Of a DNA stretch of 32,282 nucleotides, positions 11,511 through 32,075 are shown piece by piece; positions within the stretch are counted from its first letter, which is position 1, and each line of letters opens with the position of its first letter. Under the pieces are notes generated by a model that worked only from the letters and a program-made list of their open reading frames with translations, was not told the DNA's origin and searched no databases. The position numbers and the translations under genes are program-made. Source of the DNA: an uncultured Clostridia bacterium (GTDB lineage Bacteria; Bacillota; Clostridia; Oscillospirales; Ruminococcaceae); the NCBI GenBank assembly GCA_947177735.1, contig CAMWVP010000018.1, positions 1 to 32,282 on the forward strand, in the 5' to 3' direction.

Positions 11511-11514
11511 CAGT

Positions 11515-12011: not shown

Positions 12012-12040
12012 TATTTTTTAAATCGATATGTATGCATATC

Positions 12041-12420: not shown

Positions 12421-12429
12421 TAAACTTAC
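12377..12429 (+). repeat. Dispersed repeat, copy 1 (IS end)
   Basis: These 53 bases match the reverse complement of 32230-32282 with 6 differences, all transitions. Similarity stops abruptly after AAACTTAC, which probably marks the end of an insertion sequence. Confidence 0.75.
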
Positions 12430-12504
12430 TTTTTTTCAAAAAGTCGTATAAACTTTGATAAACCACAAACAAAACCGTTCGCATATCACTCCATAAAAGA
12501 GAAC

Positions 12505-13089
12505 TCATTCTTTGTATATCTCCTTCCCGAATTGAAACGCAGCAGACAGATGTTCGGTCTTGTCGATCTGAGGCTTACCGTTCGTATCACCGCAGCCTCC
12601 GGCGAGCAGCATACCCCTATCATGAAACCCAATATAATTGACTAATGTAAACTTGTAGTACGACACAGCCTGTTCAAATGTCCAGAAGAAGTTATCAGCC
12701 GCAGTCATAAGCAATGCGCAGTCCTTTTCGGGATACCGCTCATATCGACCTAACGGCGACTCCTTATCCTCCTCGGCAATGCAGTAGAATCTTTCGATAA
12801 AAGCCTTTATGCGCGATGATATTGTCCAGAAGTAAAGCGGAGAAGCAAATACAAGCATATCGGCAGCCATGATTTTCGGAACTATTTCGTTGAAACTGTC
12901 CTTTTGAACGCATGGCTTCCCGTATCGGCAGGCGTTGCACCCGAGACAGCCTTTGACTTCGTTCTTTATAAGAGATATGATCTCAACCTCATGACCCGCG
13001 TCGTCAGCGCCTTTGGCGAACGCTTTCACAAGCTGATCCGTATTTCCGTTCGGACGTCCGCCGCCCTGAATGATCAATATTTTCTTCAT
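12505..13089 (-). CDS. NAD(P)H-dependent FMN reductase / flavodoxin-fold oxidoreductase
   Basis: A 194-residue flavodoxin-fold protein. The N-terminal FMN-phosphate loop is GGGRPNGNTDQL (9-20). A Cys cluster, GCLGCNACRYGKPC (about 47-60), is like that of iron-sulfur flavoproteins. SPLYFWTISSRIKAFIERF (about 84-102) is the classic second FMN-contacting segment of this family. It likely reduces quinones, azo or other small electron acceptors in the cytosol; the substrate is unknown. The ATG is preceded by GGGGGTAA. It stands alone behind its own promoter and after the AraC gene on the same strand. Confidence 0.9.
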   Translation of the reverse strand: MKKILIIQGGGRPNGNTDQLVKAFAKGADDAGHEVEIISLIKNEVKGCLGCNACRYGKPCVQKDSFNEIVPKIMAADMLVFASPLYFWTISSRIKAFIERFYCIAEEDKESPLGRYERYPEKDCALLMTAADNFFWTFEQAVSYYKFTLVNYIGFHDRGMLLAGGCGDTNGKPQIDKTEHLSAAFQFGKEIYKE

Positions 13090-13155
13090 AGCATTACCCC
13101 CGTAAAATTATAGATCCCACGTTGATTTAACGCATCCGAGTATTCCGTCAAATAT

Positions 13156-13184
13156 ACATTACCACTCTTTGTTTGTTTTGTCAA
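13156..13184 (-). promoter_or_regulatory. Promoter of the flavodoxin-fold reductase
   Basis: Minus strand TTGACA (13184-13179), 17-bp spacer, TAATGT (13161-13156), with an extended -10 TGG. It sits between the AraC stop and the reductase start. Confidence 0.65.
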
Positions 13185-13219
13185 GTCTTTTTATGAGAAA
13201 TTAAAATCCGATACACACT

Positions 13220-14038
13220 CTATATCATATCGTTCTTGGGCGGACAGCCGAAACGTTTTACATACGCGCGGTAGAATGACGAATAGTCGCCGAAGCCCGT
13301 GCTCTCGGCAGCGCTGCCTACAGGCTCGCCGCGGCGTATCCTCTCCCTCGCGGCGGTCAGGCGTTTTATCGTGATGTATTCCCACGGCGAGGCTCCCGTT
13401 GCCTTACGAAATACCCTGCCGATCTGCGACGGACTGAGGAAAAAACGCTCCGCCAGCAATGAGACGGACAATTCGTTAAAAAGGTGGTCGTTGACATATG
13501 CGACAAGCTGCTCCGACAACTCCGCAGGCGGCGCGTATCCGTCCGTTCCGCGTTTGAGATATGCCTTGTATATCAGTTCCAACAGCGAAAAAAGCCGCGT
13601 TGATATAATAAGTCTGCGTTCGTATTCGTCTGTGCCGCCGCGCATTTCCTCAAAAAGCCGCGCCGCTTCATTGCCAAGCTCCCGCGCGGAATACAGATTT
13701 CCGCGCCCGAGCGGGCGGTCAAGAAACGGCTTCATCAGAATACGGCGGGGGTCGAGGATATCCGTCGCCGAAAACGAGAAATTCAACGCATATCGTTCGT
13801 ATTTTCCACTGCCGAGGATCCGCGCCCTGTGAGATTCGGCGGGGCGCATTATCAGTACGCTTCCGTTTTTCAGCGGATAACGCGCGCCCTCTACGAGATA
13901 CTCCGCGTCGCCCGATATAAAGCAATATATTTCGCACTGTTCGTGAATGTGCATTGTGAAGTCTTTGTCGTCGGGAGCATTATCGACCGCGTAACGAATA
14001 TACAGTTCCTCCGTATTGAATTCCTCAATAATATTCAC
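13220..14038 (-). CDS. AraC-family transcriptional regulator
   Basis: The N-terminal cupin (about 28-75) shows HIHEQCEIYCFISG and a closing PAESH motif, the usual sugar-binding arm of this family. The C-terminal pair of helix-turn-helix motifs spans about 172-268, with FFLSPSQIGRVFRKATGASPWEYI and STGFGDYSSFYRAYVKRFGCPP in separate parts. The start is a GTG; the one at 14038 has GGGGGG at 7 bases, while an alternative GTG at 14044 is too close to it. It is divergent from the sugar isomerase operon and very probably its local regulator. Confidence 0.92.
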   Translation of the reverse strand: MNIIEEFNTEELYIRYAVDNAPDDKDFTMHIHEQCEIYCFISGDAEYLVEGARYPLKNGSVLIMRPAESHRARILGSGKYERYALNFSFSATDILDPRRILMKPFLDRPLGRGNLYSARELGNEAARLFEEMRGGTDEYERRLIISTRLFSLLELIYKAYLKRGTDGYAPPAELSEQLVAYVNDHLFNELSVSLLAERFFLSPSQIGRVFRKATGASPWEYITIKRLTAARERIRRGEPVGSAAESTGFGDYSSFYRAYVKRFGCPPKNDMI

Positions 14039-14060
14039 ACTCACACCCCCCTTTTAATTA

Positions 14061-14140
14061 AGTATATCATATTATGCGCGAAATTGCAATATATTTTGCT
14101 TAAAATAACAATTGTAATGCAAATACAATTCTGATATACT
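14061..14140. promoter_or_regulatory. Divergent promoters between AraC gene and sugar operon
   Basis: Minus strand: TTGCAA (14089-14084), 17 bp, TATACT (14066-14061). Plus strand: TTGTAA (14112-14117), 17 bp, TATACT (14135-14140). Both have an extended -10 TGA. A dyad ATTGTA-N7-TACAAT (14111-14129) overlaps the plus-strand -35 and is a candidate AraC site; TTGCAAT-like half sites lie in both promoters. Confidence 0.75.
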
Positions 14141-14175
14141 TAAATCAAGCGAAAACCAATTTTGGAGGTTATAAT

Positions 14176-15003
14176 ATGAAATTCAGACTTGCAGCATTCG
14201 CGGACGAGGCGGACAGCAGCCTTGACGGTCAGATATCGGCGATGACGGAGAACGGCGTTGAGTACCTTGAAATTCGCGGTGTCGACGGCGAAAACATCTC
14301 GGACATTAAGGCGGATAAGGCGCGTGATATCCACGCACGGCTTGACGCGGCGGGTATATCGGTGTGGTCGCTGGGTTCGCCGTTCGGAAAGATCGGCATT
14401 ACCGAGGACTTTGAACCGCATCTGGATAAATTCAAACGCGGACTTGAGCTTGCCGATATCCTCGGCACAAGGCATATCCGCATATTCAGCTTCTATGTTC
14501 CGTACGATAACGCAGAGCATTATTCGGACGAGGTAATGAAACGGCTGGAAAAAATGCTTGTAGCGTCAAAGGGCAGCGGCGTAATGCTCTGTCACGAGAA
14601 CGAAAAGGGAATTTACGGCGACAATGCAGAACGCTGCGCAGAAATACATAAAATTTTCTCCGAGCTTCGCGCGGTGTTCGACCCCGCTAATTTCGTTCAG
14701 TGCGGGCAGGAAACAACGTCGGCATGGGAGCTGCTTTCGCCGTACGTCGAGTATCTGCATATCAAGGACGCTCTTGCGGACGGTTCAGTCGTGCCTGCGG
14801 GTAAGGGAATAGGTAACATACCGTATATTCTGCAAAGATATCGCGGCGAGGTGCTGACCGTCGAGCCGCACTTGTCGGTGTTCAACGGACTTGACAAGCT
14901 CGAGCGCGGCGACACTGCGGAGCGTAAATATTGCTATCCCGACTCGCGCACGGCATTCGGCGTGGCGGTAGACGCACTGAAAAAGATAATGGAGGAATTG
15001 TAA
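14176..15003 (+). CDS. Sugar phosphate isomerase/epimerase (AP-endonuclease 2 / xylose isomerase-like barrel)
   Basis: A 275-residue TIM-barrel protein of the family that isomerises or epimerises keto-sugars and inositol derivatives. Likely metal ligands are visible: Glu141 in CHENEKG, Asp169 in FDPANF, His195 in YLHIKD and Glu230 in TVEPHL. The start has TTGGAGG eight bases upstream. The stop overlaps the start of the next gene (TAATG), so the two are translationally coupled. The substrate cannot be told from sequence. It is first in an operon with an oxidoreductase and a transporter, divergent from the AraC gene. Confidence 0.92.
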   Translation: MKFRLAAFADEADSSLDGQISAMTENGVEYLEIRGVDGENISDIKADKARDIHARLDAAGISVWSLGSPFGKIGITEDFEPHLDKFKRGLELADILGTRHIRIFSFYVPYDNAEHYSDEVMKRLEKMLVASKGSGVMLCHENEKGIYGDNAERCAEIHKIFSELRAVFDPANFVQCGQETTSAWELLSPYVEYLHIKDALADGSVVPAGKGIGNIPYILQRYRGEVLTVEPHLSVFNGLDKLERGDTAERKYCYPDSRTAFGVAVDALKKIMEEL

Positions 15004-17880: not shown

Positions 17881-18297
17881 CTAAATATTTTCGCAAAAAA
17901 TGTTGATTATACGGCGAAATTCGGCAAGCTCCTCTTCGGAAAGCCCCTTCGTAAGCCTTTCTTCCATTTGCCTTTTCCCAACGCTCATAGCGTCTACTGT
18001 ATTTAGAGCTTTATCGGTCGCGCAAACGATTTTGTTGCGCCGATCTTTCTGATCCGTATGGCAGGAAACAAATCCGTTTTTCTCAAGCCGAGAGATAATT
18101 CCGACAACCGTTGGGTGAGAAACCTGCAAGTGATCTTCGATCTCCTTTTGCGTAGCACTGCCGCTTTGACTATATAAAAAGCCTATAACCAAAGTCTGCG
18201 AAAAGGTAATCCCCTGTTCTTTCAATAAAACGTCCACCGAAATCTTGATCTTATCCGCAAGCCTTTTGATAAGCAGTCCTATATCCCTTTCTTCCAT
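17881..18297 (-). CDS. MarR-family transcriptional regulator
   Basis: The 138-residue protein has the MarR winged helix: recognition region TQKEIEDHLQVSHPTVVGIISRLEKNGF followed by the wing with DQKDRRNK (about residues 46-90), flanked by the dimerisation helices. The ATG at 18297 is preceded by GGGAGG; the in-frame ATG seven codons earlier lies upstream of that site and is rejected. Its promoter carries a perfect 14-bp palindrome directly after the -10, so it probably represses itself. The same motif occurs before the next gene. The ligand is unknown. Confidence 0.93.
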   Translation of the reverse strand: MEERDIGLLIKRLADKIKISVDVLLKEQGITFSQTLVIGFLYSQSGSATQKEIEDHLQVSHPTVVGIISRLEKNGFVSCHTDQKDRRNKIVCATDKALNTVDAMSVGKRQMEERLTKGLSEEELAEFRRIINIFCENI

Positions 18298-18321
18298 ACG
18301 GTTCCTCCCAGGAGACATATC

Positions 18322-18364
18322 TGTAGCCTGCTACAATTATAGCATATTATTTGCGAAATGTCAA
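18322..18364 (-). promoter_or_regulatory. marR promoter with overlapping operator
   Basis: Minus strand TTGACA (18364-18359), 17-bp spacer, TATAAT (18341-18336): a perfect consensus. The palindrome TGTAGC-CT-GCTACA (18322-18335) begins at the next base, covering the transcription start, which is the classic position for autorepression. Confidence 0.85.
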
Positions 18365-19703: not shown

Positions 19704-20885
19704 TTACGCTTTCATTCTCTTCTTATAGTCTGCCTTGATCTGCTCGAGCGCCACGGCGTCCTGCTTGCGCTTTTCGCGAGCCTGATCCTGGATAGCCTGA
19801 ACCTCGTCGATACCGTCGACGATTGTCTGCCAGGTCTGCTGGAGTGTCTCTACCTTAATGGAGGAGTTCGCCGCCATACCCGCTACCATCTTGGACTGGT
19901 TGACGGTGTTCTGAGCGTTCTTGATAAGCATCTCGTTGGTTTTTTCGTCCAATGCCGCGAGGGAGTCGGCCTGTATCTTCTGGCGCTTTAGCATAATAGC
20001 CTGCGCGAGAGACTGCTTGAACACGGGCATTGTGATGATGAACGCGGAGTTTATCTTGCGCACGAGGTTAAGGTTGGAGTACTCCATCGTTTTCAGCATA
20101 GGCACGGTCTGGAGCGCAACGTTCTCGGCGATCTTCAGATCCATAACGCGCTGATCGAGTATCTCGCGCATCTGCTGCAAATTCGACAGATCCATACGGA
20201 TAGTGCCGTCGTCGGGATTAGCCTCGACCTTAGCCTTGTATTCCTCAATGAACTGATCCAGCTCCTTGACGCCCTGCTCGCCCGCCATTATATACTTCAC
20301 GAGCTGCTGATAGTAGCCGAGGTTCGCCTCGTACATATTGCCGAGCTTGGCGTTTGCCTGATCGATCTCGGTCTCGTACTGCTTGAGCTGAACGTAGATC
20401 TTGTCGATCTCCTTGCCCATGGTGTCATACTTGTTGAGTATCTTGTCGAGCTTCTTTTTGAGGTTGCCGAAGAATCCCGGCTTTTCGTCCTCAAGCTCCT
20501 TGATATCGAACTGATCCATTATCGCCGCGAGGTTTTTGAGCATTACGCCTGTGTCGTTGATCTGCTGGATGCTCATGGAGTTGAGCACCTGATCGGAAGC
20601 CTGCGAGATCTGATCGGCAGCCTCAGCGCCGAACTTAACGATCGTCGAGCTGTCGTTGACGTTGATGGTGGAGACGAGCTGATCTATCTCCTTGCTCGAG
20701 GCGAGCTGCTGCTTGATCTCGTCTGTCTTTACAACGATGTTGAAGTTCTTCGCTTCCTCGATCTTAGCGTCGAGAATAGCGGGAGCGGCAGTAGGCGTCG
20801 CGGTAGTGACGGTGGTTGCCGTGGCTTCAATTTCGGGGCTTGCCTGCTGAGCGGCAGCCGCGCCGGGTGTGAATTGTAATCCCAT
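19704..20885 (-). CDS. telA: TelA/KlaA-family toxic anion resistance protein
   Basis: The 393-residue protein is almost wholly alpha-helical with long coiled coils, no signal peptide and no membrane segment. An Ala/Thr/Pro-rich N-terminus (1-40) precedes the TelA domain, with typical helical stretches such as KKLDKILNKYDTM, LNLVRKINSAFIITMPVFKQ and NEMLIKNAQNTVNQSK. Family members are linked to tellurite and cell-wall-agent resistance in Bacillota (the Bacillus YceH type) by an unknown mechanism. It is the last gene of the operon, 61 bases after the YceG-like gene. Confidence 0.93.
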   Translation of the reverse strand: MGLQFTPGAAAAQQASPEIEATATTVTTATPTAAPAILDAKIEEAKNFNIVVKTDEIKQQLASSKEIDQLVSTINVNDSSTIVKFGAEAADQISQASDQVLNSMSIQQINDTGVMLKNLAAIMDQFDIKELEDEKPGFFGNLKKKLDKILNKYDTMGKEIDKIYVQLKQYETEIDQANAKLGNMYEANLGYYQQLVKYIMAGEQGVKELDQFIEEYKAKVEANPDDGTIRMDLSNLQQMREILDQRVMDLKIAENVALQTVPMLKTMEYSNLNLVRKINSAFIITMPVFKQSLAQAIMLKRQKIQADSLAALDEKTNEMLIKNAQNTVNQSKMVAGMAANSSIKVETLQQTWQTIVDGIDEVQAIQDQAREKRKQDAVALEQIKADYKKRMKA

Positions 20886-20946
20886 TTTCTAATCCTTTCT
20901 TGCAGCCGGTGCTGCTGTAATAGACTTCTCCGGTTCCCGAAGAGGT

Positions 20947-23118
20947 CTAATGTTTTCCGAACAGCTTTCCGAAAAAACCGCCGCTCTTCTCCTCGGAGGG
21001 TATCTTAAACTTCGGAACCTCCATGTCATATAAAAATTGATTCATTATATGCTCTTCAAACGCGTCCGGCGAGACGTAGGTCTCCAGGTTTTTATAGCCC
21101 GTCGGCGTGTAGATAAGGATATCATAGCCTATCAGATTGCACAGCACAAGCTGTATGCATTCCCAGACCGTAAACGTATCCTCAACCGCGTCGATATATA
21201 TAAGCTTCGGTATCGCCCGCGTGAAGTCAAATTTCTGTACTGTCTGCAGGAAAGCCTTGGTGACGATGTTCATTCCGTGGTAGAGTATCCTGCACATCAG
21301 CTCGTCCCCCTGCAGCTTCAGAAATCCGCACGAGGCTGTCTCCTGGAGCTTATAGAACATCATATCCTGAATCCTGTCGGGCAGATAGCTGAACTTGTTG
21401 AGCGTGCTCGCCTTGAGCTTTTCGACGTCGTACTGCCCGTTGCGGTAGAACTGACGGTAAACTCCCATATCCGGCTCGGGCTCCTCGGGGTTTTTCCCCT
21501 TGACGATGAGGGTCGTGTCTGGGGTGAGCCGTTGACGTATATCCTCCCAGTAGTTGTTGAGGTTGCCGTCCTCGACGCCGCTTATCTTGGCGAAGATATT
21601 CGGCACCGAGACGAGATTTCCCGCCGTTGTAAAGCCCGTCCGAAACCGCGCCTCCTGCTTCCACAGTATCGCGATCTCCTCAAACGTGGTCTTTAGCGTC
21701 ACCGATTGGCTGTTCGGGAACTGAAAGCTCCTGTAAATTCCCGTATCGCCGCCGTACAGCATCGTATCAAGATCGCGCTCGGCGGAATACGCCACCGTCG
21801 CGACCTTCATCTTTATTGACTTGTTCGGATAGCTTCCGCTCTCCTTGCTTTGCGGCAGCTCAAATATCTGCATTCTGCCGCCTAAGTTCTTGTCGATGAC
21901 GAGCGCGGAGTTCTTCTTGTCGGGTGAGATGTACACGGTATCGAAGCCGCACCGCGACATAAAATTGAGAAAGTACATCTCCGACTGCGATATATCTCCG
22001 TAGTAGAGTATCACGGGGATATCCTCATACCGCACGGCGTACTTGCGCGCCTGCGTGCAGCGGTAAAGCCATGTTATCAGCTTATTGCCGTAATTGAGCA
22101 CGACCGTCTGATTTCCCGTGTTCAGCTCGCCCAACAGCTCGGTGAGCGTTCTCCGCGCGAGCGCCGTCCGCGTAGGGTCGCCGCTCAGCGATATCGACAT
22201 CGCAAGCGCCTCTATCATCTCGGCGGTGCTTGTCCTCGGCACGCTGCCGAGCGCCCTTACCTCGTCCGCGTTCGGGTTTTCCAGAGGCTTTTCTATGAAG
22301 ATGAGCTGCTTTTTCAGCCCCGCGAAGCTCTCCTTGAACTTGACGAGCATATTCGTGTACACGGTCTCCTCGTCAAAGCCGATAAGCGCCGCCGAATAGA
22401 CGGGTATCTCGCCGTCCTCGGTAAATACGCCGCCGTTTCCGACAACGCGCGAGCGCCTGTCCTTGAGAATATCCTCGAACATACCCGCCGCCGACGTATC
22501 GAGCCGCTTTACGAGACCGCTCACGCGTTCGCACTCGGCTCTCATCTCGGCGCGCTTTGCCTCTTGAGAGAGGTCAATCTTAGAGAAATCTATCTGCAGC
22601 GGCGCGGTATTTCTGCCGCCCTTTATCGTCACATCGTCCTTGTACGGGAACTTTGAGAAATCCGTGTCCAGCCCGTAGCTCACGACCGTCACCTTAACGC
22701 CCGCCGCCGCGAGCATATACAGAAAATACAACTCGCGGAGAGCCGCCGAGCCAATATACAGCACTGCGGACGGTCTCACGCTCAGATACTTTATCAGCCA
22801 GCACAGCACCACAAAGTAAGTATTCTTTTTATTCGCCCCGCATTCCGCGACCGCCTGCGACATGATCTCGGCGAGCTTCGCACTGTCGCACGGGATATTC
22901 ACCTTATGCAGGAACATATCAAGACCGCGTTTGATATCCGCCGCGCTTTCAAAGCTTGAAGCGGTGAACTCCGCTGCCTTTGATATTTCATCGGTAGTCG
23001 CGAGCGGCAGCTTTTCCTTAAAGAACAGCCCGTTCTGACGCGTCGCCGCAAACTGCCCGATCAAGAAGCTCCGAAAACCGTCGGGGTCGTCATACCCGAC
23101 ATATCTCGTAAACTCCAC
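20947..23118 (-). CDS. YceG-like Ter-operon protein
   Basis: A 723-residue soluble protein, longer than Bacillus YceG (about 540). I recognise it mainly from context and overall character: an alpha/beta protein without signal peptide, sitting directly before telA. That position and style match the YceG family, which comparative genomics associates with a Ter biosynthetic module. Hydrophobic stretches such as SAALRELYFLYMLAAAGVKV suggest a Rossmann-like core near residues 120-150. The start is GTG with GGGGGA at 7 bases. The C-terminus ends in a Gly/Phe-rich tail (GGFFGKLFGKH). Enzymatic activity is unknown. Confidence 0.75.
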   Translation of the reverse strand: MEFTRYVGYDDPDGFRSFLIGQFAATRQNGLFFKEKLPLATTDEISKAAEFTASSFESAADIKRGLDMFLHKVNIPCDSAKLAEIMSQAVAECGANKKNTYFVVLCWLIKYLSVRPSAVLYIGSAALRELYFLYMLAAAGVKVTVVSYGLDTDFSKFPYKDDVTIKGGRNTAPLQIDFSKIDLSQEAKRAEMRAECERVSGLVKRLDTSAAGMFEDILKDRRSRVVGNGGVFTEDGEIPVYSAALIGFDEETVYTNMLVKFKESFAGLKKQLIFIEKPLENPNADEVRALGSVPRTSTAEMIEALAMSISLSGDPTRTALARRTLTELLGELNTGNQTVVLNYGNKLITWLYRCTQARKYAVRYEDIPVILYYGDISQSEMYFLNFMSRCGFDTVYISPDKKNSALVIDKNLGGRMQIFELPQSKESGSYPNKSIKMKVATVAYSAERDLDTMLYGGDTGIYRSFQFPNSQSVTLKTTFEEIAILWKQEARFRTGFTTAGNLVSVPNIFAKISGVEDGNLNNYWEDIRQRLTPDTTLIVKGKNPEEPEPDMGVYRQFYRNGQYDVEKLKASTLNKFSYLPDRIQDMMFYKLQETASCGFLKLQGDELMCRILYHGMNIVTKAFLQTVQKFDFTRAIPKLIYIDAVEDTFTVWECIQLVLCNLIGYDILIYTPTGYKNLETYVSPDAFEEHIMNQFLYDMEVPKFKIPSEEKSGGFFGKLFGKH

Positions 23119-23137
23119 AGTTTGTTCCCCCTTAATA

Positions 23138-23299
23138 AGAGCTTGTGTTCATAGGATTTGTGCGTGGATTTTTGAGCAAATTCAGCCGAGAACAAGGAAA
23201 AATTCCGCAGGCTTGCTGACGCAAGTCAAGGAATTTTGACGCAGTTATCAGCTGAATTTGCCAAAAAGACGCGTGCAATATCCTATGAATACATGCTCT
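23138..23299. repeat. Nested palindromic element inside the Ter-type operon
   Basis: The ends AGAGC (23138) and GCTCT (23299) begin arms of about 60 nt that match with scattered mismatches; GCAAATTCAGC and its complement GCTGAATTTGC are exact. Inside lie further stems: AAAATTCC with GGAATTTT, and CTTGC with GCAAG. At 162 nt with inverted ends and no coding capacity it resembles a MITE or a structured RNA element. It separates the TerD-fusion gene from the YceG-like gene. Confidence 0.7.
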
Positions 23300-23325
23300 A
23301 AATGAATTTGTGCGTATATTTGCGC

Positions 23326-24573
23326 CTACTGCTCGTTGACGACCTCAATGCCGTAACGGTTGCATAGCTTTGCCATACCGTCCTTGTAGCCCGCGCCGAC
23401 AGCCGATATCTTCCATTCGCCCTTGTACAGATAAAACTCCATAGCGACGACGGTAGCCTCGTTTGACAGACTGTCCATATTGAACGACGCTCTCTCTGCG
23501 CCCGCGCGTATCGATACACGCGGCTCCCGCACTGCCGAGAAGTTTCTCTGCGCGCCGCCGGCGTATATCGAATATGCGAGCGCGATCTTCTGAACTCTGA
23601 AATCGACCTTCGAGAGATCGACAGCCAGATGCCCGTCGTCGGGGAAGAAAACCGCCTCCCCGTTGTCGGAGTGTTCGTTGCCGAAGAATATCAGCCCCGA
23701 ATCGCCGAGCGACTGCTCGTCCTTTCCGAGCAGGAACAGATACGGATCGATCTCGTAGTCGCGCGGCTTTTCGCAGGTGAAAAAGATGTCAAAGCGGCTT
23801 CCTATGTACTTCGACATCGACACGCGCTGTCCGCGCTTCATTTCGAGCGGCGGCAGCGACATATCGGGCGCGCTGCTTTCCATTGAGATGACGTCCGTAG
23901 CCGTCCGTGTAACGGGCGTTACGGTAGGAACGGCTTTCGGTTTGTGCGAAAGATCTCGCTCGGGAGCGGTGTAGACGCGTTTTCCGTTTGCCGCGGCAGT
24001 ACCCGTGTTTGGTTTTCCCGTGAGGTAAATGCGACGCGTGAACTTGGTCTTGAACAGTATTTCGGCGTATAAATATGTCTGAGCCGAAATGCCGGAAACG
24101 GTCACGGTCAGCTCGTTGCGCCCCGCGTTGAGAACGTCGGGCGAGAGCGATACTTCCCGTATGCCGCACACGATCTCCGTTCTGTCGGGAACGTTGACCT
24201 CAAGCGTGAACGTATTCACGGCGTCGGCAGCAAATTCTCCCAGCTCGATAGTCCGCGGAACGTCGAAATACCCGTCCTCCGCGCCAAATCCGCGTACTCC
24301 GCCGAGCACCTCGATATCCTTTGCGGCGGCGAGCACGTTGGCAACAACAGCCGCCTCGTCGGGACTGCCCTCGGTGAGCTCCGCGCGGATATTCTCGATA
24401 GAAACGCCGTTTGAGTTTATTTCGATAACGGGCGAGCGTTTCGCCCAGATAGTGGTGTTTTGTCCCAGAAGGCGCAGGGGCTTGCTGATGACCAGCGGAC
24501 CCTCGAACTCGCCCGCCGGCAGCTTTACCGACGCTCCCGGCGGCGCATCCGCAATGATCTGCTTGATATCCAC
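23326..24573 (-). CDS. TerD-domain protein fused to an N-terminal beta-helix-like region
   Basis: The 415-residue protein starts at a GTG after GGGGGAGG. Residues 1-70 (GEFEGPLVISKPLRLLG, then SNGVSIENI) look like the start of a pectate-lyase-type right-handed beta-helix. Residues about 85-190 look like a beta-sandwich. A Pro/Thr linker follows, then a TerD domain (about 245-415: KRGQRVSMSKYIG.. to KISAVGAGYKDGMAKLC). In the TerD part the Ca2+ motifs are altered: DYEIDP instead of DFDLDA, and the GDGEGDDE loop is shortened to PDDGH. It probably binds Ca2+ weakly or acts as a partner of the canonical TerD encoded just upstream. Confidence 0.85.
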   Translation of the reverse strand: MDIKQIIADAPPGASVKLPAGEFEGPLVISKPLRLLGQNTTIWAKRSPVIEINSNGVSIENIRAELTEGSPDEAAVVANVLAAAKDIEVLGGVRGFGAEDGYFDVPRTIELGEFAADAVNTFTLEVNVPDRTEIVCGIREVSLSPDVLNAGRNELTVTVSGISAQTYLYAEILFKTKFTRRIYLTGKPNTGTAAANGKRVYTAPERDLSHKPKAVPTVTPVTRTATDVISMESSAPDMSLPPLEMKRGQRVSMSKYIGSRFDIFFTCEKPRDYEIDPYLFLLGKDEQSLGDSGLIFFGNEHSDNGEAVFFPDDGHLAVDLSKVDFRVQKIALAYSIYAGGAQRNFSAVREPRVSIRAGAERASFNMDSLSNEATVVAMEFYLYKGEWKISAVGAGYKDGMAKLCNRYGIEVVNEQ

Positions 24574-24608
24574 AAGCCCCTCCCCCTTTCAAATCATTTG
24601 TTTGTCGC

Positions 24609-25193
24609 TTAAACGTTTACACCGTAAGCTCTGCAAAGCGCTTCAAGACCGCCCTGATAGCCCGCGGCTACCGCGTTGAACTTCCAGTCGCCGTTGTAGC
24701 GGTATATCTCGCATACAACGATTGCGGTCTCGATGGAGAACTCCTCAACGAGATCGAAGCGGAGAACCTCTTCGCCGCCTACGTCATCGGGATTGTCGAT
24801 CTTTAAGACGCGCACGTAGGAATTGGACACCTGACCGAAGTTCTGGTGATTCTGCTCGGCGTTGAAGATGGTTACCGTAACTGCGATCTTCTCGATCTCC
24901 GCGGGGATCTTGGAGAAGTCGATGATGATAGCCTCGTCGTCGCCTTCACCGTCGCCCGTTCTGTTGTCGCCGGTGTGTACGACAGCGCCGTTTCTTGCGG
25001 AGAGATTGTTGTAGAAGATGAAGTCCTCGTCCTTAAGAACCTTGCCGTTTGCTCCAAGCAGGAACACACACGCGTCAAGGTCGAAGTCCTGACCGCCGTC
25101 ATAGCGGTTGGTATCCCAACCGAGACCGATCCTTGCCATAGTTACCGATTTGTCAAGGCTTACGCGCTGACCCTTAGAAAGATTTACTGCCAT
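24609..25193 (-). CDS. terD: TerD-family Ca2+-binding stress protein
   Basis: A canonical TerD of 194 residues: it opens [15 protein letters not shown] and has the Ca2+-site motifs DFDLDA (36-41) and [11 protein letters not shown] (about 77-87). The C-terminus [19 protein letters not shown] is also typical. TerD proteins are cytosolic Ca2+-binding beta-sandwich proteins tied to tellurite, phage and envelope stress resistance. The ATG has CGGAGGA. A strong hairpin sits between it and the Ca2+ ATPase gene before it. Having a Ca2+ pump and a Ca2+-binding protein side by side fits a shared Ca2+ role. Confidence 0.97.
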
Positions 25194-25221
25194 AGTTTAT
25201 TTCCTCCGTTAATTATTTGTT

Positions 25222-25258
25222 AAGCGGTCGGAGAGGGAACGCCCTCCCGCGACCGTCT
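25222..25258 (-). terminator. GC-rich hairpin between ATPase and terD genes
   Basis: CGGTCG (25225-25230) pairs with CGACCG (25250-25255) around an inner GAGGG/CCCTC stem. No T-run follows on the minus strand, so it may be a leaky terminator or a processing site that lets terD accumulate independently. Confidence 0.45.
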
Positions 25259-25263
25259 TAATT

Positions 25264-27987
25264 TTAGTTCCTTGCTCCCGCGTTTGCGACAGCTTTTCTG
25301 ATAAGGTCTATCGGGATTATCGAGATAGCCGGAATAAGCACTACCAGCCATTCGGTCGCGGTAAGACCCCAACCCGAAAGGATACCTCTGCCGAGATAAG
25401 TCATCAGTATCTGCACTACCGCGATGATTCCGAATACTGTCAAAAAGCCCTTGTTCTTGCCAAGGTTATCGAACAGGTTTACACGGTCGGTGCGCGCGTT
25501 GAACGCGTTAAATACCGCGACGAAGATGAAGAACGCGAAGTATGCCGTGTGGAGTATCGCGTGCTTCTCGCTGAAGCCTGCCACAGCGTCGTCTCTCAGC
25601 CAGCCCCACTGCTCGAGATAGCTCGTATCGCTGCCGCTCGGGAACGAGCCGAGGATAAGCATTATCAGTGAAAGAACGAACGTCCAGCCCGCGCCCACGA
25701 TGATCTCCGACATCATATACTTGCTGATGATCGGTTCGGTACGGCGCTTGGGCTTCTCCAGCATAAAGCGCTCGAGAGCGGGTTCGCCGCCGAACGCCAA
25801 CGCCGCGAGGGTATCCATTACCAGGTTTACCCAGAGTATCTGAATAACGGACAGCGGATTTTCCACGCCGATAAGCGGACAGATGAACGAAATAAGCACC
25901 GCCGCTACGTTGATAGTCAGCTGGAATACGATAAACTTGCGTATCGAGTTGAAGATCGTGCGCCCGTAAAGGATCGCGCGGTCGATAGAGTTGAAGTTGT
26001 CGTCGAGGATAACGATGTCGGAGGCTTCCTTTGCGACCTCCGTGCCGCCGCCCATCGCGAAGCCGACGTCGGCTTTCTTGAGGGCAGGGGAGTCGTTTAC
26101 GCCGTCGCCCGTCATACCCGCAACGAGGTCAAGCTCCTGCGCGAGACGCACCAGACGGCTCTTGTCGGTAGGCAGAGCGCGCGCGATAACGCGGATATCC
26201 TTGAGCTTCGCTTTGATATCGTCGTCGGACATTTTGGCAAGCTCGTCGGAGGTGAGCATAAGGTTGCTGTCGGAGTCAATGAGCCCCGCTTCCTTCGCGA
26301 TCGCGACTGCGGTCTCCTTGCGGTCGCCCGTGATCATAACGACCTGAACGCCCGCGCCCTTAACCTCCTTGATAGCGGTAACGGATTCGGGACGAACCTC
26401 GTCGCGTATTCCCAGACAGCCCACGAGCGTCCAGTTGTTGCCCGCGGGGAGGGCGTCCTCGCCGAGCGCGTCCTCGGAGGTAGCCACCGCCAGAACGCGA
26501 ATAGCGCGGTTTGCAAGCTCGTCGATCTTGGCGTTGAGCTGCTTCATATCAAACGGCTGCTTTTTGCCGTCCTTGTCGTAGTAGTGCGAGCAGCGCTGGA
26601 GAATCTTCTCGGGCGCGCCCTTGATGAGCGAGAGGTCATATTCGCCCTCGACCTGTGTCGCGGAGTACTTGTTGGTGGAGTTGAACGGGATATTCCCGAC
26701 AGCCTTTACAGCCGCGTTGCATTCGGCGTTCACAGCGTAGCCGAGGATAGCGCGCTCCGTTGCGTTTCCGCCTAGCACGCGTCTGTCCTTGCCCTCGCCC
26801 GAGATCATGGACAGCGTATTCTTGTGGATAGACAGCGACAGCAGATCGCCGAGCTTTCCGCCAACATCCTCAAATGTCTTGTACTCGTTCACAGCGCCGT
26901 CAATGAAGTTGATGGCTTCGAGCTTGCCCTTGGTGATGGTGCCGGTTTTATCGGAGAACAGGATGTTCAGCGAGCCCGCGGTCTCGATACCTGCGACCTT
27001 GCGCACCAATACGTTGTCCTTGAGCATTTTGCCCATATTCTGCGCCGAAACGATAGCTATCATCAGCGGCAGACCCTCGGGTACCGCCATTACGATAATG
27101 ATTACAGCCAGCATAACCGCTTGTATAACCGCCTCGATAAGCCCGAAAATACCGCCTGCCGCCCAGAACGCTGCGGGGCCTCCGGGAATGAACAGAATGG
27201 TCTTAGCCAGCATAGCCACCGCGATAGCGATACCGCCGATGTAACCGAACTTCGAGATGCCGTTCGCGAGCTTGCCTAGCTTGAGCTTGAGAGGTGTGTC
27301 GCGGTCGTCGTCGGTCTGGAGCTCGCTTGCGATCTTGCCGTAAACCGACTTGTCGCCGACAACGGTGACCTGCATAGTCGCGTTGCCCGAGCAGACTACC
27401 GCGCCGCGGTAAACCTTGTATTCGCTGTCGAAATCGGTGTTTTCGTCGGTATCCGTCCAGCCGTCGGGAACGGCGCGTTTCTTGGCTTCGCGGCTCTCGC
27501 CGTTCAGCACCGACTGGTCGACTTTGATGTCTCCGTCGACGATTATGCCGTCCGCGGGTATCTTATCGCCCGACTGGAGCAGGATAGCGTCGCCGACAAC
27601 AATGTCGTTTATAGCGACCTCGGCAATGACGCCGTTTCTGTAGACCTTGCAGAGTATGCGCGAGGCTTCCTCCTGGAGCTTCTGGAACGCGTTCTCGTTT
27701 CGGTATTCGGAGAACGTCGAAACCAGCGTCGCCAGACAGATCGCCACGAAAATGCCGAGCGGCTCATACCACTCGGGAGCGCCCTCCTTGATAACGCCGG
27801 CGTAGCCCAGCACGGACAGTACGACGTTTATCAGCAGCGCCACGATCAGTATCTTGATCATGGGATCCCCGAGATTGCCCTTGAGCTTATCCCAGAAGCT
27901 TTCGTGAGCCTGCTCAGTCATTGAGTTGTCGCCGTATTTCGCCTTGCTTTCGGCAACTTCTTTGTCTGTTAGACCGAATTTCTTCAT
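25264..27987 (-). CDS. Type II P-type Ca2+-transporting ATPase
   Basis: The 907-residue pump exports Ca2+ at the cost of ATP. It has the N-terminal cation ATPase segment, the TGES-type loop here as LNGES (161-165), PEGLP in TM4 (303-307), the phosphorylation site Asp346 in DKTGT, TGDGVNDSPALKKADVG in the hinge, and TM6 with WVNLVMDT, as in plasma-membrane Ca2+ ATPases. About ten membrane helices are present. The start has AGGAAAGG. Set between the kinase and terD genes, it takes the place where other Ter loci have the membrane protein TerC. Confidence 0.95.
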   Translation of the reverse strand: MKKFGLTDKEVAESKAKYGDNSMTEQAHESFWDKLKGNLGDPMIKILIVALLINVVLSVLGYAGVIKEGAPEWYEPLGIFVAICLATLVSTFSEYRNENAFQKLQEEASRILCKVYRNGVIAEVAINDIVVGDAILLQSGDKIPADGIIVDGDIKVDQSVLNGESREAKKRAVPDGWTDTDENTDFDSEYKVYRGAVVCSGNATMQVTVVGDKSVYGKIASELQTDDDRDTPLKLKLGKLANGISKFGYIGGIAIAVAMLAKTILFIPGGPAAFWAAGGIFGLIEAVIQAVMLAVIIIVMAVPEGLPLMIAIVSAQNMGKMLKDNVLVRKVAGIETAGSLNILFSDKTGTITKGKLEAINFIDGAVNEYKTFEDVGGKLGDLLSLSIHKNTLSMISGEGKDRRVLGGNATERAILGYAVNAECNAAVKAVGNIPFNSTNKYSATQVEGEYDLSLIKGAPEKILQRCSHYYDKDGKKQPFDMKQLNAKIDELANRAIRVLAVATSEDALGEDALPAGNNWTLVGCLGIRDEVRPESVTAIKEVKGAGVQVVMITGDRKETAVAIAKEAGLIDSDSNLMLTSDELAKMSDDDIKAKLKDIRVIARALPTDKSRLVRLAQELDLVAGMTGDGVNDSPALKKADVGFAMGGGTEVAKEASDIVILDDNFNSIDRAILYGRTIFNSIRKFIVFQLTINVAAVLISFICPLIGVENPLSVIQILWVNLVMDTLAALAFGGEPALERFMLEKPKRRTEPIISKYMMSEIIVGAGWTFVLSLIMLILGSFPSGSDTSYLEQWGWLRDDAVAGFSEKHAILHTAYFAFFIFVAVFNAFNARTDRVNLFDNLGKNKGFLTVFGIIAVVQILMTYLGRGILSGWGLTATEWLVVLIPAISIIPIDLIRKAVANAGARN

Positions 27988-28057
27988 TTGCTAAATATCC
28001 TTTCCTGTGTTTATTAAGTTATGTCAAAGCCACAATTTGGCATAATTCCGTACAATG

Positions 28058-29542
28058 CTACCCGCTCCTGATGACCATCGTTTCGCACAGCAGCCCGTTT
28101 TCCTTGTTGCTCATTCGGAACATCGCCATATCCTTGAGCTCCACCGCGCTGCCCTTCGGCACGAGTCTGCCCGACGGCGACATCATTCCCTCTATCCCGT
28201 TGTTGACGAGAAGCCACATACCGTTGTAATACGCGATATAAGCTCTCATAGCGGGGTCTGCCTTTTCATCGTTGTGGACATTCGAGAACACGTGCCAGTC
28301 GAAAAGCGGCATCTTGTCATAGACGATGACCTCGCTCTTTCCGCGATACACGCCCTTTTTGCCGCGCATTTCGCTTTTGAAGCCCAGCCGAATGATGTTC
28401 CTCGCGGCGCGCGTTCCGCAGAACGGGCAGACGGGGCTTTTTTCGTCGCGCAGTATGAACCACTTTTTTTCGCAGTTCGGGTTCGCGCACGGCACCAGCC
28501 TGTCCCAGGCCTTCAGCAGCTCGGTTTCCCACTCCATAGCGGTCGGTCGTTCCGAGGGGCTGTGCAGTCCGTCCACGAACGCTCTCAGAAACAGCTTTTC
28601 CAATCCTTTCGACAGCGATTGTATCGTCACTCCGAGATCGGGCGGTCTGTTCGAGCGGTCGTCTGGATTTTCGATAAAGGTAGCCATTTTTCCGAGAGCC
28701 AGATAATCGTCCTCCTCCGCGCTCGCGGTGCTGTATATTTTCGGACCTATGAGCGGGTGACGGAAGAACAGGTACTCATATATGAGTACGGGCAGCGCGT
28801 GCAGATCGGTCTGTACGCTCGGGAGCGCGCGCCTGCTGTCGTTAAACTCCAGCTCCATCGTCGCGAGAACTTCGGGCGCGATATAGCCGCGCGTTCCGAC
28901 GACCTCGGGCGCGTATTTGTTCGGCACGACGAGCGAATCGATATCGATCACAACAGCCGAGCCTGTTTTCGGGTCAATGAGTACGTTGTTGCAGGACAGA
29001 TCGGAGTGTGCAAGACCCGCCTGATGCATTCTCCGCACCGTTCTCGAAAGTCCTATCGCGGTCTTGAGCATCGTCCGGAAATCTCCGCGCTCGGAGGGCT
29101 CGAGGTATTTGCGGTTGCGCCCCGTGAACCAGTTCGACTTCTTGTCCTTGCCCTTGAGATTGAGCACGGTCGACGCGCCCTCGCCGAAGAAGAAGTTGCT
29201 CGGATATGTCGGGCAGACAATGCCGAATTGGGGGCTCTTCACGATTGCCACAGGCCAGCAGAAGCGCTGCCTGAAATAATCCGCGGTCTTTTCGGTGTTG
29301 CCGAGAGCGCCTCCGTCCGCCTCCGAGAGCGTGGGGTTGTATATGCCCACGATAGTGCGGATACGATCCTGCATACGCGGATTTGCGGAGTCGCGCGGGT
29401 CGTTGAAAAACTGAACCGCAAATTTCCTGTCGGGCGTGAAAAACGTGTGCTTCATACCGCCGCGCGGCGCGTTTGCGTCGAAAACATATTGAATTGAGTT
29501 GCCGTTTTCCAGCACGGCAGTAAGCACTTCGCCGCTTCTCAT
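28058..29542 (-). CDS. Kinase-like protein with zinc ribbon (Ter/TerY-associated)
   Basis: The 494-residue protein has a divergent protein-kinase domain: catalytic loop HSDLSCNN (179-186; Asp181, Asn186), metal motif IDID (Asp202 where DFG is usual), and GTRGYIAPEV (216-225). At the VAIK position it reads FAVQFF, so the usual Lys appears to be Gln44. A zinc ribbon follows (Cys352, 357, 372, 375), then a C-terminal beta-rich domain (about 385-494). It matches the kinase of the VWA/PP2C/kinase triads found in Ter loci. Its substrates are unknown, and TerY or TerD proteins are candidates. Confidence 0.88.
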   Translation of the reverse strand: MRSGEVLTAVLENGNSIQYVFDANAPRGGMKHTFFTPDRKFAVQFFNDPRDSANPRMQDRIRTIVGIYNPTLSEADGGALGNTEKTADYFRQRFCWPVAIVKSPQFGIVCPTYPSNFFFGEGASTVLNLKGKDKKSNWFTGRNRKYLEPSERGDFRTMLKTAIGLSRTVRRMHQAGLAHSDLSCNNVLIDPKTGSAVVIDIDSLVVPNKYAPEVVGTRGYIAPEVLATMELEFNDSRRALPSVQTDLHALPVLIYEYLFFRHPLIGPKIYSTASAEEDDYLALGKMATFIENPDDRSNRPPDLGVTIQSLSKGLEKLFLRAFVDGLHSPSERPTAMEWETELLKAWDRLVPCANPNCEKKWFILRDEKSPVCPFCGTRAARNIIRLGFKSEMRGKKGVYRGKSEVIVYDKMPLFDWHVFSNVHNDEKADPAMRAYIAYYNGMWLLVNNGIEGMMSPSGRLVPKGSAVELKDMAMFRMSNKENGLLCETMVIRSG

Positions 29543-29807
29543 ATTATAACCCTTCCGAATATTTTAATTTATCCGTTAATTTTTTGTGTGATATGAAAGT
29601 TTTTGCAGTCATTTGCAGCGGGCGTTTCCGAGAGCCGCAAACGCTGTGATTTCGGCATTTAAACAGCCCGTTTTTTGAACATTCTCGCGGACTTTAAAAC
29701 GCCGTTAATTGCGTCTGTAAAGCCAATGTCATCGGGGTGCTCCCGCGTGAGATGTCGTGAGATTTAACCGTTTTTCGGAAGCCTTTTTCAGCCCCGAAAT
29801 CCGCCTG
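29543..29807. other. Spacer between PP2C and kinase genes
   Basis: 265 bases, long for an operon, without a coding signal. One dyad GCGTTT/AAACGC (29622-29627 with 29639-29644) is seen. It may hold a second promoter or a removed gene; I found no consensus promoter. Confidence 0.35.
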
Positions 29808-31316
29808 TCACTTTCTCGGTATGCGCACCGCTGTAAGCGTCCTGTCGTCAAACGAGCCGCGCTCGTTGTAGTTGTCGAGCCATACGCGCAGACGCTCCTC
29901 GGGAGTGTCCCCGATATTCATTCTGAACGCCTCCAGAGAATGGCACCGCAGCATATTGCGCTTGTCCCAGAGCGCCGCCATGGCCGCGTCGGACTTGTCG
30001 CCGAGAAGCTGCTTGGCGTATTGCAGCGCAACGCTCTGCTGCGTGATTGACACCGAGCGGAACCGTATCGGCGCGGGATCCTCGCCGCCCTTGCCGCATT
30101 CCCCCTCCATCGGGAGTATGCCGTTCAGACAAAGGTCGAGATACAGCCGTTCCATCATCGGCTGCGCGGGGAAATAGTCATCCGCCACGCCGTCCGACAT
30201 AAGCAGCACGGTATCGGAGTTTCCGCGCGAAATACGCGTTTTTCCGCCGATGACCTCCGCTTTCGAGTTCTTTTCGGAGAGAAAATCCGTCTCCCCCGAG
30301 AATGCCCCGCTGTCCGCCTCGCCCATCAGCTTCAGGCAGTGAGAGCTGTCTGCGGTGCTGTCAATTGCACAGATACAGCCGTCGCCTATCTGCACGCACG
30401 CCATGAACGTCTGCGGCTTTCCGTCGACCTTCACGGGCACGATTACAGCTGCCAGAAACGTTGTTGAGAGGTCGCCGATAGCGGGCTTGCGACCCAGCGC
30501 GTCCTCGTATTTTTTATCCGCGGCAAGCTCGCCGAGGGTCTTCTGCTGCGCCGCGAAAGCCTCACGGGCTGCCTCCTGGACGAGAGGCGCGATACGTCCG
30601 CAGGCAGCCATAAATTCCGCCGAGCCGAGATCCGCCGCAAGCCCCGATTTTAACTCGGGCTTTGCCTTGAACAGCTCCGTCGTCTTGGTCTTGAGGTACG
30701 CCGTCGCGCTCTCGGCGCTGACACGCGAGCCGATCCTCGAAAGCGGCTTGGAGCCCGCGCCGTCGCACACCACCGTGATAACGCAGTCGTCGGTGACGGC
30801 GGTCTCGAAATAGTCGTCGCAGTTTGTGCCCTCATGCTTGTGCTTTTTGCCGCGCACGCGCGCGCCGATGACCTCGGCAAACGGCGTAACGGTGCGCTTT
30901 TCGTGATATTCCGAGTGCATCTCCGTGCCGTTGTCGGTGATCTCCTTATACTGCCATATGGAAGCGGTATGCTCCATTACCTCCATATCGGACAGATGGG
31001 GCGCGGGCTGAACGCTTTCCGCGGGCTTTTCGGTAGCCTTGGGCGCGTCCTTTTTCGCGCTTTGCGGCTCACCGCCCGGCTTGCTCTGCGCCTTGACAGG
31101 CTCGTCGGTCTTGGTCTGACCGGCGGGTTTATCCGCTTTTTTCTGCGCGGCAGTGCCGCCGCCTTTATTGAGCGACTTCTGTATTTTAAGGTACTCCTCC
31201 GTGGACATAACGCCGTTTTTCTTTTGCTCAATGTCGTCGAACGTAATCGACAGCTGCTGCTCGGCTATATCCGTGCTTTCGCCCGGGGGAGTGGGGTTAA
31301 GTTCGGTTTTATCCAT
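29808..31316 (-). CDS. PP2C-family protein phosphatase
   Basis: A 502-residue Ser/Thr phosphatase. Residues 1-130 form a Lys/Ala/Pro-rich disordered extension. The PP2C domain then shows the metal-binding motifs NCDDYF (Asp167, 168), CDGAGSKPLSRIGS (Asp185), a MSDGVADDYF segment and the final DDRTLTAVRI. It would remove phosphates placed by the partner kinase. The start has AGGTGA and lies 22 bases after the terY stop, so the two are in one operon. In Ter systems a PP2C commonly sits between TerY and the kinase, as it does here. Confidence 0.93.
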   Translation of the reverse strand: MDKTELNPTPPGESTDIAEQQLSITFDDIEQKKNGVMSTEEYLKIQKSLNKGGGTAAQKKADKPAGQTKTDEPVKAQSKPGGEPQSAKKDAPKATEKPAESVQPAPHLSDMEVMEHTASIWQYKEITDNGTEMHSEYHEKRTVTPFAEVIGARVRGKKHKHEGTNCDDYFETAVTDDCVITVVCDGAGSKPLSRIGSRVSAESATAYLKTKTTELFKAKPELKSGLAADLGSAEFMAACGRIAPLVQEAAREAFAAQQKTLGELAADKKYEDALGRKPAIGDLSTTFLAAVIVPVKVDGKPQTFMACVQIGDGCICAIDSTADSSHCLKLMGEADSGAFSGETDFLSEKNSKAEVIGGKTRISRGNSDTVLLMSDGVADDYFPAQPMMERLYLDLCLNGILPMEGECGKGGEDPAPIRFRSVSITQQSVALQYAKQLLGDKSDAAMAALWDKRNMLRCHSLEAFRMNIGDTPEERLRVWLDNYNERGSFDDRTLTAVRIPRK

Positions 31317-31338
31317 TCAATTCACCTGATATACCGTG

Positions 31339-31980
31339 TTACGGTACGATAACAAATCCCTGAGGAGGAGGCGGCAGCTCGATCGGGTCGCCGGGCTTGG
31401 CGTCGATACTCTTGGAGCTCGCCTTGATGGAGCTGGATACCCACGCGAAGAACTGCGCCATATCGCCTGCCGTGAGATTGTTCATCATGAGCACGTTGTT
31501 GGTGATCTTCTTAAGGGTATTCGCGTTTGCGTTAGCGCCCGCGCCGCAGGCGATGATGTTTCCCGTGGAGACCTTCTGCACCGCTTCTATTCCCTCGTCG
31601 AGGTTGTCTGTGGGCGCGCCGTCGGTCATAAGGAATACCAGCGGTTTCCAGTCGCCCTTTTGTGTGGCGGTGGAGGTGTGCACCTCGTTGGTTATGCACT
31701 CCGCGAGCACTTTAAGAGCGCCGCCGAGAGCTGTTGCGCCGCCTGCCTGTATCTGCGGCTCTTTAAAAAGCATAAGCTCCGTCAAAGGAGTTATCTGCCG
31801 CGCGGAGCTGTCAAAAGTAATGATTGACAGGAACGCGGTCTCAAGCGCCTGCGGGTCGCCCTTGAGCTCCGAGATAAGGGTCTTGATGCCCTGCTTGACC
31901 GCCTCGATCGGCTCGCCCGCCATTGAGCCGCTGCAGTCGAGCAGCAGGTATACGGGTAATCTTCTGATATAATCGGACAT
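31339..31980 (-). CDS. terY: TerY-like von Willebrand factor A domain protein
   Basis: The 213-residue protein is a single VWA domain with an intact MIDAS: DCSGS (Asp15, Ser17, Ser19), a Thr in GGATALGG and Asp in LMTDGAPTD. VWA domains bind a divalent metal and act as partner-binding modules. The ATG at 31980 is chosen because GGAGG is 8 bases upstream; an ATG 17 codons earlier lies beyond this site. It is the first gene of the Ter-type operon and is followed by PP2C and kinase genes, forming the known TerY-phosphorylation triad. Confidence 0.94.
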   Translation of the reverse strand: MSDYIRRLPVYLLLDCSGSMAGEPIEAVKQGIKTLISELKGDPQALETAFLSIITFDSSARQITPLTELMLFKEPQIQAGGATALGGALKVLAECITNEVHTSTATQKGDWKPLVFLMTDGAPTDNLDEGIEAVQKVSTGNIIACGAGANANANTLKKITNNVLMMNNLTAGDMAQFFAWVSSSIKASSKSIDAKPGDPIELPPPPQGFVIVP

Positions 31981-32036: not shown

Positions 32037-32075
32037 ATTATACCTTAATTTTCACGATCTGTCAATAGTTTTGAC
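32037..32075 (-). promoter_or_regulatory. Consensus promoter of the Ter-type operon with overlapping dyad
   Basis: Minus strand TTGACA (32065-32060), 17 bp, TATAAT (32042-32037): a perfect sigma-A promoter. A small dyad GTCAA-N5-TTGAC (32061-32075) covers the -35 and could be a regulator site. Confidence 0.8.

Follow-up and report, generated by a model that had tools for sequence, protein, structure and literature searches.

What does a putative Ca2+ pump do in a Ter-type operon, in the place where other Ter loci carry the membrane protein TerC? The question is raised by an uncultured Clostridia bacterium (assembly GCA_947177735.1; 3.36 Mb in 247 contigs, 98.96% complete), one contig of which (C18, 32,282 bases) was analysed in its entirety and is called the window below; the reading ends at position 32282, and the promoter site of the operon falls inside it. 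From position 31980 down to position 19704, the minus strand encodes a VWA protein, a PP2C-type phosphatase, a protein kinase, a P-type ATPase, TerD, a TerD fusion, a YceG_bac protein and TelA. An initial annotation, made from the letters alone, had listed this row of eight genes, with the VWA gene starting at 31980; profile matches confirm every gene, all on the minus strand, as well as that start. The promoter site and the genes are as follows:

32037..32065, minus strand: sigma-70-type promoter site TTGACA-N17-TATAAT (12 of 12 consensus positions, spacer 17), 56 bases 5' of the VWA start codon
31339..31980, minus strand: VWA protein, TerY-like (PF00092, 56.5 bits), start codon at 31980
29808..31316, minus strand: PP2C-type phosphatase (PF13672, 104 bits)
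28058..29542, minus strand: protein kinase (PF00069, 43.4 bits)
25264..27987, minus strand: PMCA-type (P-IIB) Ca2+ ATPase (TIGR01517, 589.9 bits, cut-off 507.05)
24609..25193, minus strand: canonical TerD (PF02342, 249.6 bits)
23326..24573, minus strand: TerD fusion (TerD at residues 244-407, 88.4 bits)
20947..23118, minus strand: YceG_bac protein with two YceG stretches (192.4 bits)
19704..20885, minus strand: TelA (323.6 bits)

The reading that we favour, with a probability of about 55%, is that of a Ter-type stress-response operon in which a PMCA-type Ca2+-exporting ATPase occupies the slot that TerC holds elsewhere and partners TerD. At the sequence level, this reading is suggested by the gene set, the shared orientation, the position of the pump by TerD, the exclusion of TerC in the sampled loci and the joint absence of pump and canonical TerD. 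Of the features of a Ter locus, the window has a canonical acidic TerD with TelA and YceG_bac neighbours; TerC, a typical feature that serves here to distinguish the two types, had no match.

The distribution of TerC and pump was surveyed in two samples. The first was drawn as 348 Bacillota genomes, of which 21 have TerD, the window's genome among them (that the same 348 genomes underlie the TerD and TerC counts is deduced from equal numbers and shared genome handles). Its 21 loci correspond to the window and 20 fetched loci, G083 being added and G165, with one weak TerD match and an internal stop, being omitted. The second sample comprises the best 80 of at least 503 confirmed TerD matches, in named genomes; it leans to relatives of the query and partly overlaps the first (L124 and L163 belong to both), and six of its loci, L108-L113, are closely related to that of the window. 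Pumps were counted above 200 bits (40 loci) or, more strictly, above 300 bits (38 loci, two partial pumps at contig ends dropping out).

The mutual exclusivity of terC and the Ca2+ ATPase, for which the initial annotation had proposed such a survey, was borne out: a locus with both was found neither among the 80 named loci nor among the 21 loci of the first sample. The named loci divide into 40 with the pump, 26 with TerC and 14 with neither. With the stricter count the figures become 38, 26 and 16, and 12.35 loci with both would be expected if the two genes were independent (Fisher p = 2e-10, uncorrected for relatedness). Removal of the eight overlapping or closely related loci leaves 30 with the pump, 26 with TerC, 16 with neither and none with both; the corresponding figures in the first sample are 11, 8, 2 and 0. 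At the scale of whole genomes, the TerD genomes of the first sample comprise ten of the pump type and 11 others, eight with TerC beside TerD and three (G203, G366 and G165) with TerC elsewhere, so that TerC is found in none of the ten pump-type genomes and in all 11 of the others. Two pump-type genomes from outside the 348-genome draw (G083 and G048) likewise gave no TerC match. Among the named loci, 33 of the 40 of the pump type were checked genome-wide (32 genomes of unstated completeness), as were all 14 with neither gene and one of the 26 with TerC; TerC was unmatched in 31 of the 32 pump-type genomes.

Pump genes lie without exception on the same strand as the nearest TerD (11 of 11 loci in the first sample, 38 of 38 named), and TerC genes do so too (8 of 8 and 26 of 26). 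The distance from TerD to the pump or TerC is mostly below 150 bases, with a maximum of 3,405 for the pump and 698 for TerC. The order TerD-TerD-TerD-pump-YceG-TelA in L139 matches the order TerD-TerD-TerD-TerC-YceG-TelA in L083, and the pump-type locus of G083 shares genes for a C-C lyase, a phosphoribosyltransferase (PRTase), StiP and a HAD protein with the TerC-type locus L072. From the common strand, the position and the gene order in these two pairs, we conclude that the replacement is positional. Taken together, the survey suggests one cluster family in two versions, in which the jobs of TerC and of the pump are interchangeable. In the pump-type locus of G293, an AIM24-family gene lies between TerD genes (L076:10448-11128, minus strand).

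The yceCDE-meeF operon of Bacillus subtilis, named in the excerpt of PMC10550928, is a Bacillus-type Ter locus with TerC. Bacillus-type TerC loci (L072, L083, L138) resemble the window in their one-strand row of TerD paralogues with a membrane protein, with YceG_bac and TelA nearby; they differ from it in that the membrane protein is TerC and not a P-type pump, and in that a VWA/PP2C/kinase triad was undetected. L072 in addition has the C-C lyase/PRTase/StiP/HAD genes, which the window operon lacks: this biosynthetic module was unmatched among the eight operon proteins, the pump's own HAD-type hydrolase domain apart. The Ter system of Anantharaman, Iyer and Aravind (2012), as summarised in the excerpted text of PMC7824862, has TerC as its transmembrane component, and that excerpt mentions no Ca2+ pump; it agrees with the window in a ligand-binding TerD and in TelA and a VWA protein lying under the membrane. 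No statement of an alternation between TerC and a pump was found in the literature searched; the main 2012 Ter study lay outside that search and may name the pump, and the priority of the observation is uncertain.

The transporter of the operon had been called a Ca2+ pump in the initial annotation, and its profile score points the same way: among the equivalog models, the protein exceeds the cut-off of TIGR01517 (PMCA, Ca2+) alone, its scores on the PMR1-type and SERCA-type models staying far below theirs (398.2 vs 798.3 and 375.3 vs 703.4 bits). The nearest solved structures are the plant plasma-membrane ATPase 8 (8qmp) and Listeria lmo0841 (9euq), PMCA-type ATPases that have in common with the window pump the DKTGT motif, PEGLP in transmembrane helix 4 (TM4), an asparagine in TM5 and an asparagine and an aspartate in TM6. 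In the main clade of Ter-locus pumps described below, DKTGT, E304 (TM4), N693 (TM5), N721 and D725 (TM6) are identical in 50 of 50 proteins. This residue set is presumably the pattern of a one-site Ca2+ pump; with its TIGR01517 score, DKTGT and these single-site residues, the window protein has the features of a PMCA-type pump, and the ion moved may be Ca2+, Mn2+ or both. Unlike 8qmp and 9euq, the clade pumps are encoded within Ter loci and mostly have NGE, not TGE, in the actuator loop (window residues 162-164; NGE in 48 of the 50 clade Ter-locus pumps vs TGE in 18 of 21 compared pumps). The nearest named relative by pump, among the matches listed, is the Oscillospiraceae genome of L108 (94% identity).

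Is the pump a stable part of the locus? It lies on the YceG contig in 25 of 37 genomes of the genus (the window's counted) and in the fetched locus of four more that are cut by contig ends or in two pieces (G025, G027, G033, G036), making 29 of 37 overall, which excludes a single-strain oddity. In G025, the pump gene (L090:4906-7639) is split into two overlapping frames. Among the remaining genomes, G003, G022, G023 and G024 have pump and YceG on separate contigs, the contig of G018 is short, YceG was not found in G028, and the locus of G016 and of G026 is uninterrupted and pump-free. A TerC search gave no match in the window's 98.96%-complete assembly, the same search matching in 9 of 14 control genomes, nor in any of the 37 genus genomes. 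Of the two findings that the initial annotation had named as damaging to its claim, a terC gene close by and a housekeeping ATPase present in one strain, neither was thus borne out.

The two genomes with an uninterrupted pump-free locus allow the operon to be divided. The locus of each, G016 and G026, lacks both pump and canonical TerD, the sole TerD match genome-wide being the fused degenerate one, and the VWA, PP2C, kinase, fused TerD, YceG and TelA genes are kept; the two genomes are sisters on the TelA tree and count as one event. Canonical TerD was found in every one of the 16 genus genomes with a pump that were tested. Pump and canonical TerD thus occur together or not at all, and the remaining genes can persist without either. 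This joint absence makes a Ca2+ pump with a Ca2+-binding TerD the likely unit, and the persistence of the triad, fused TerD, YceG and TelA points to two separable sub-modules. G044 shows only YceG and TelA at the locus and one degenerate TerD genome-wide.

The canonical TerD retains the DFDLDA and GDNxTGxGxGDDE stretches in alignment and matches the solved TerD 2kxt (E = 5.7e-62), whose entry title names calcium-binding properties. A second canonical TerD of the same genome lies outside the operon on contig C98 (L004:3435-4025, minus strand), beside a gene for an aminoacyl-tRNA editing domain. The TerD domain of the fusion protein is degenerate, most acidic motif residues being lost, and its N-terminal part is beta-rich with a weak NosD-like match (28.3 bits, far under the family cut-off). 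Its AlphaFold2 model has a mean pLDDT (predicted local distance difference test) of 87.6 and a predicted template modelling score of only 0.52; Foldseek matches it to TerD 3ibz and 2kxt.

In the proposed mechanism, pump and TerD would cooperate on the inner side of the membrane. The ATPase would export divalent cations, most likely Ca2+, and TerD would bind Ca2+ near the pump, either as a buffer feeding it or as a switch reporting local Ca2+. In Bacilli, the corresponding job would fall to TerC as a Mn2+ exporter of the LysE superfamily. The VWA protein, PP2C and kinase, with fused TerD, YceG and TelA, would form the second sub-module, which may act on pump and TerD and persists without them. 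The excerpt of PMC10550928 assigns TerC to the LysE superfamily and reports, for the TerC proteins MeeF and MeeY, Mn2+ efflux activity and a part in the metalation of exported enzymes; it states that there is no evidence for tellurite transport by TerC. In yeast, a genetic interaction links the LysE-superfamily protein Gdt1 with Pmr1, a P-type Ca2+/Mn2+ ATPase, and similar functions have been proposed for the two (PMC7380456 and PMC10550928, both in excerpt), which offers a parallel for a P-type pump in the slot of a LysE-type exporter.

The second sub-module could make the operon a full Ca2+ signalling circuit, as the initial annotation proposed: the pump sets Ca2+ levels, TerD senses them, and the kinase and phosphatase set the response. 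Its parts are all encoded in a single operon-like row, preceded by a single conserved promoter site. The promoter before the VWA gene is a consensus match in the sequence and not a transcript, read from 32065 to 32037 with 12 of 12 positions, and would be the single promoter of the initial annotation; perfect TTGACA-N17-TATAAT sites number two in the window and none in 100 shuffles, and sites with 9 of 12 positions within the operon are at chance level. Of 18 loci from the genus and close relatives (the window counted; L111 duplicates L101), 16 have a perfect site with spacer 17 on the 5' side of the VWA gene; in L097 and L112 it is absent from the 200 bases upstream of that gene. Within the operon, the gap between the PP2C and kinase genes (29543-29807) is 265 bases in the window and 21 bases in L102. 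The second perfect site (18336-18364, minus strand) lies just 5' of a MarR-family gene (17881-18318).

Adjacent in the operon and keeping their catalytic residues, with a caveat at Gln44 of the kinase, the VWA, PP2C and kinase genes form what we take to be the TerY-P triad. Positions at least 95% identical include D32, S34 and S36 of the VWA protein (24 sequences; numbering of the longer frame starting with TTG) and D167, D168, D185, D375 and D491 of the phosphatase (23 sequences). In the kinase (26 sequences), the HSDL and DID motifs are conserved, Gln44 stands at the position expected for the VAIK lysine and Lys31 belongs to the glycine-rich stretch, each residue being conserved to at least 95%; this arrangement presumably recalls that of WNK kinases. 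The kinase also has a four-cysteine zinc-ribbon-like stretch (C352, C357, C372, C375) and a beta-rich tail, and its AlphaFold2 model (mean pLDDT 88.6) has a kinase fold whose Foldseek matches are kinases. Elsewhere in the window (7792-11391), genes for a transglutaminase-like protein and an 801-residue Ser/Thr kinase are adjacent and divergent.

Only pump-type loci yielded the triad, namely 6 of 11 loci of the first sample (five complete) and 8 of 38 named ones (seven complete), a distribution that favours the circuit. The earlier statement that Ter loci with TerC often include it finds no support in these Bacillota data: beside TerC, the triad was seen in 0 of 8 and 0 of 26 loci (0 of 34 in all), although the profiles came from relatives of the window locus and could miss distant triads. 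The pump-type locus L127 has, after its TerD genes, a divergent row of kinase, VWA and PP2C genes (10601-14195; 64, 64 and 28 bits) that scored too low to enter the triad count. Against the circuit, no triad was counted in 30 of the 38 named pump-type loci (the count being a lower bound, as L127 illustrates), and G016 and G026 retain the triad, fused TerD, YceG and TelA in the absence of both pump and canonical TerD. A complete circuit appears improbable. What stands of that proposal is a putative Ca2+ pump at the TerC position, the lack of sampled loci with both genes and the joint absence of pump and canonical TerD; a Ca2+ signal set by the pump and sensed by TerD, and its tuning by kinase and phosphatase, stay hypothetical.

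The pump could instead replace TerC as a Mn2+ (or Mn2+/Ca2+) exporter and metalation partner, Ca2+ being incidental. The export of Mn2+ and the service to metalation reported for MeeF and MeeY (PMC10550928, in excerpt) speak for it, as does a Mn2+ riboswitch of Clostridioides difficile that, in the excerpt of PMC11477304, precedes a P-type ATPase called orthologous to a Mn2+-protective Lactococcus pump. Set against these are the profile scores, with only the TIGR01517 cut-off passed and the PMR1-type model far from its own, and the plant plasma-membrane ATPase 8 as nearest solved pump. The Mn2+ riboswitch (RF00080) was rejected as regulator of the operon, being unmatched upstream of it; there is none above threshold in the window and none in the genome, in a search of low sensitivity whose control matched 5 of 14 genomes, two over the cut-off. 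We regard such a Mn2+ (or Mn2+/Ca2+) exporter as rather unlikely, a little less so than the complete circuit.

The exclusivity might also reflect ancestry and not shared function, Clostridia having lost TerC otherwise and acquired the pump as an unrelated addition. Several observations lend weight to this view or otherwise count against the partnership of pump and TerD that we favour. TerC is rare in the window's order, Ter locus or not (2 of 61 genomes searched, one over the cut-off), and because of this scarcity its absence in the genus says little alone. The TelA tree (64 rows: 34 pump, 20 TerC, 10 neither) needs only two pump/TerC changes, a strong clade structure that implies few independent events; the TerD tree (248 proteins in several paralogue classes) gives ten, many at weak forks. 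One pump-type genome, G488 (L179), has TerC on another contig of similar G+C (0.577 vs 0.602). Neither gene is found in 14 of the 80 loci, some of them cut by contig ends, and TerC lies elsewhere in eight of those 14 genomes. In G002, G005, G007 and G010, canonical TerD is not on the pump contig; a lack of canonical TerD in G005 and G010 was rejected, the gene lying on other contigs. A pump clade strictly bound to Ter loci was rejected by L203, L204 and L207, clade pumps with no TerD in the fetched stretch, and TerD was unmatched genome-wide in G068 and G078, the genomes of two of the three. The Ca2+ specificity of the pump, finally, is read from its residues alone.

Other distributions fit ancestry poorly. 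TerC occurs in 87 of the 348 Bacillota genomes (81 over the cut-off), including members of the families f46 (G406), f80 (G149, G187, G421) and f81 (G152, G190) and of the genus g214 (G343, G367) that are not listed as having TerD, and pump-type members of these same groups have no TerC (the sizes of the groups as drawn being unstated). Enterococcus larvae, of a Bacilli lineage, is of the pump type. The pump tree adds a probable second recruitment. This quick tree of 73 rows, with long branches flagged, was repeated with a mixture model on 28 of the rows. One clade unites 50 Ter-locus pumps with three from outside Ter loci, a proportion of 50 in 53 that overstates the Ter association, since the rows were mostly drawn from Ter loci. 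The pump of L139 clusters with pumps from non-Ter loci and that of L075 forms a long basal branch; the 28-row tree agrees. A single recruitment, with all Ter-locus pumps of the test united, was rejected (approximately unbiased test, p-AU 0.014; 28 rows, moderate and post hoc), and so was a constraint joining L139 to the main clade without L075 (p-AU 1e-5, the group having been picked after the first tree). The pump was thus likely recruited at least twice, judging from these trees. On balance, a pure lineage effect seems to us unlikely, about as much so as the complete circuit.

The operon was also compared with known defence systems and mobile elements. A known defence system was rejected: in PADLOC the kinase alone had matches, all weak (PD-T4-6 the best, at 28.8 bits), and at E 0.001 the seven remaining proteins had none. 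An origin from a mobile element was likewise rejected, no relative appearing in a viral contig scan that used a single query protein and would show close relatives only. In a phage collection, 0 of 131 records reach 60% identity, the best among the 15 of 131 listed being an unannotated 4.5-kb scaffold at 48%. Four plasmid records were found, including Entomospira (46% identity) and Parabacteroides (36%), whose stretches carry no annotated Ter gene, as judged from annotation with hypothetical proteins unscanned. The PMCA-type pump of Entomospira culicis plasmid p98 (a spirochaete; L214:7602-10265) is 46% identical to that of the window. Jug phages have in common with the window TerD genes and a Ca2+ P-type ATPase; the excerpt of PMC12363816 describes the two separately and does not report adjacency.

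Returning to the operon with a PMCA-type pump in the TerC slot, a wider generalisation may be offered tentatively, as a possibility that we rate below this reading and above its rivals. Ter systems may need a divalent-cation exporter, a slot filled either by TerC or by an unrelated P-type Ca2+ ATPase recruited at least twice; pump and TerD may form a membrane-associated unit that handles or senses Ca2+ and that, in some lineages, is linked to a relay of kinase, phosphatase and VWA protein. To our knowledge, well-defined bacterial Ca2+ circuits are few. If TerC and the Ca2+ pump are alternative components of a single machine, their shared job should be the export of divalent cations coupled to Ca2+-binding TerD, and a vaguely defined stress system would gain a testable ion and, in the pump and TerD, a testable pair of partners.

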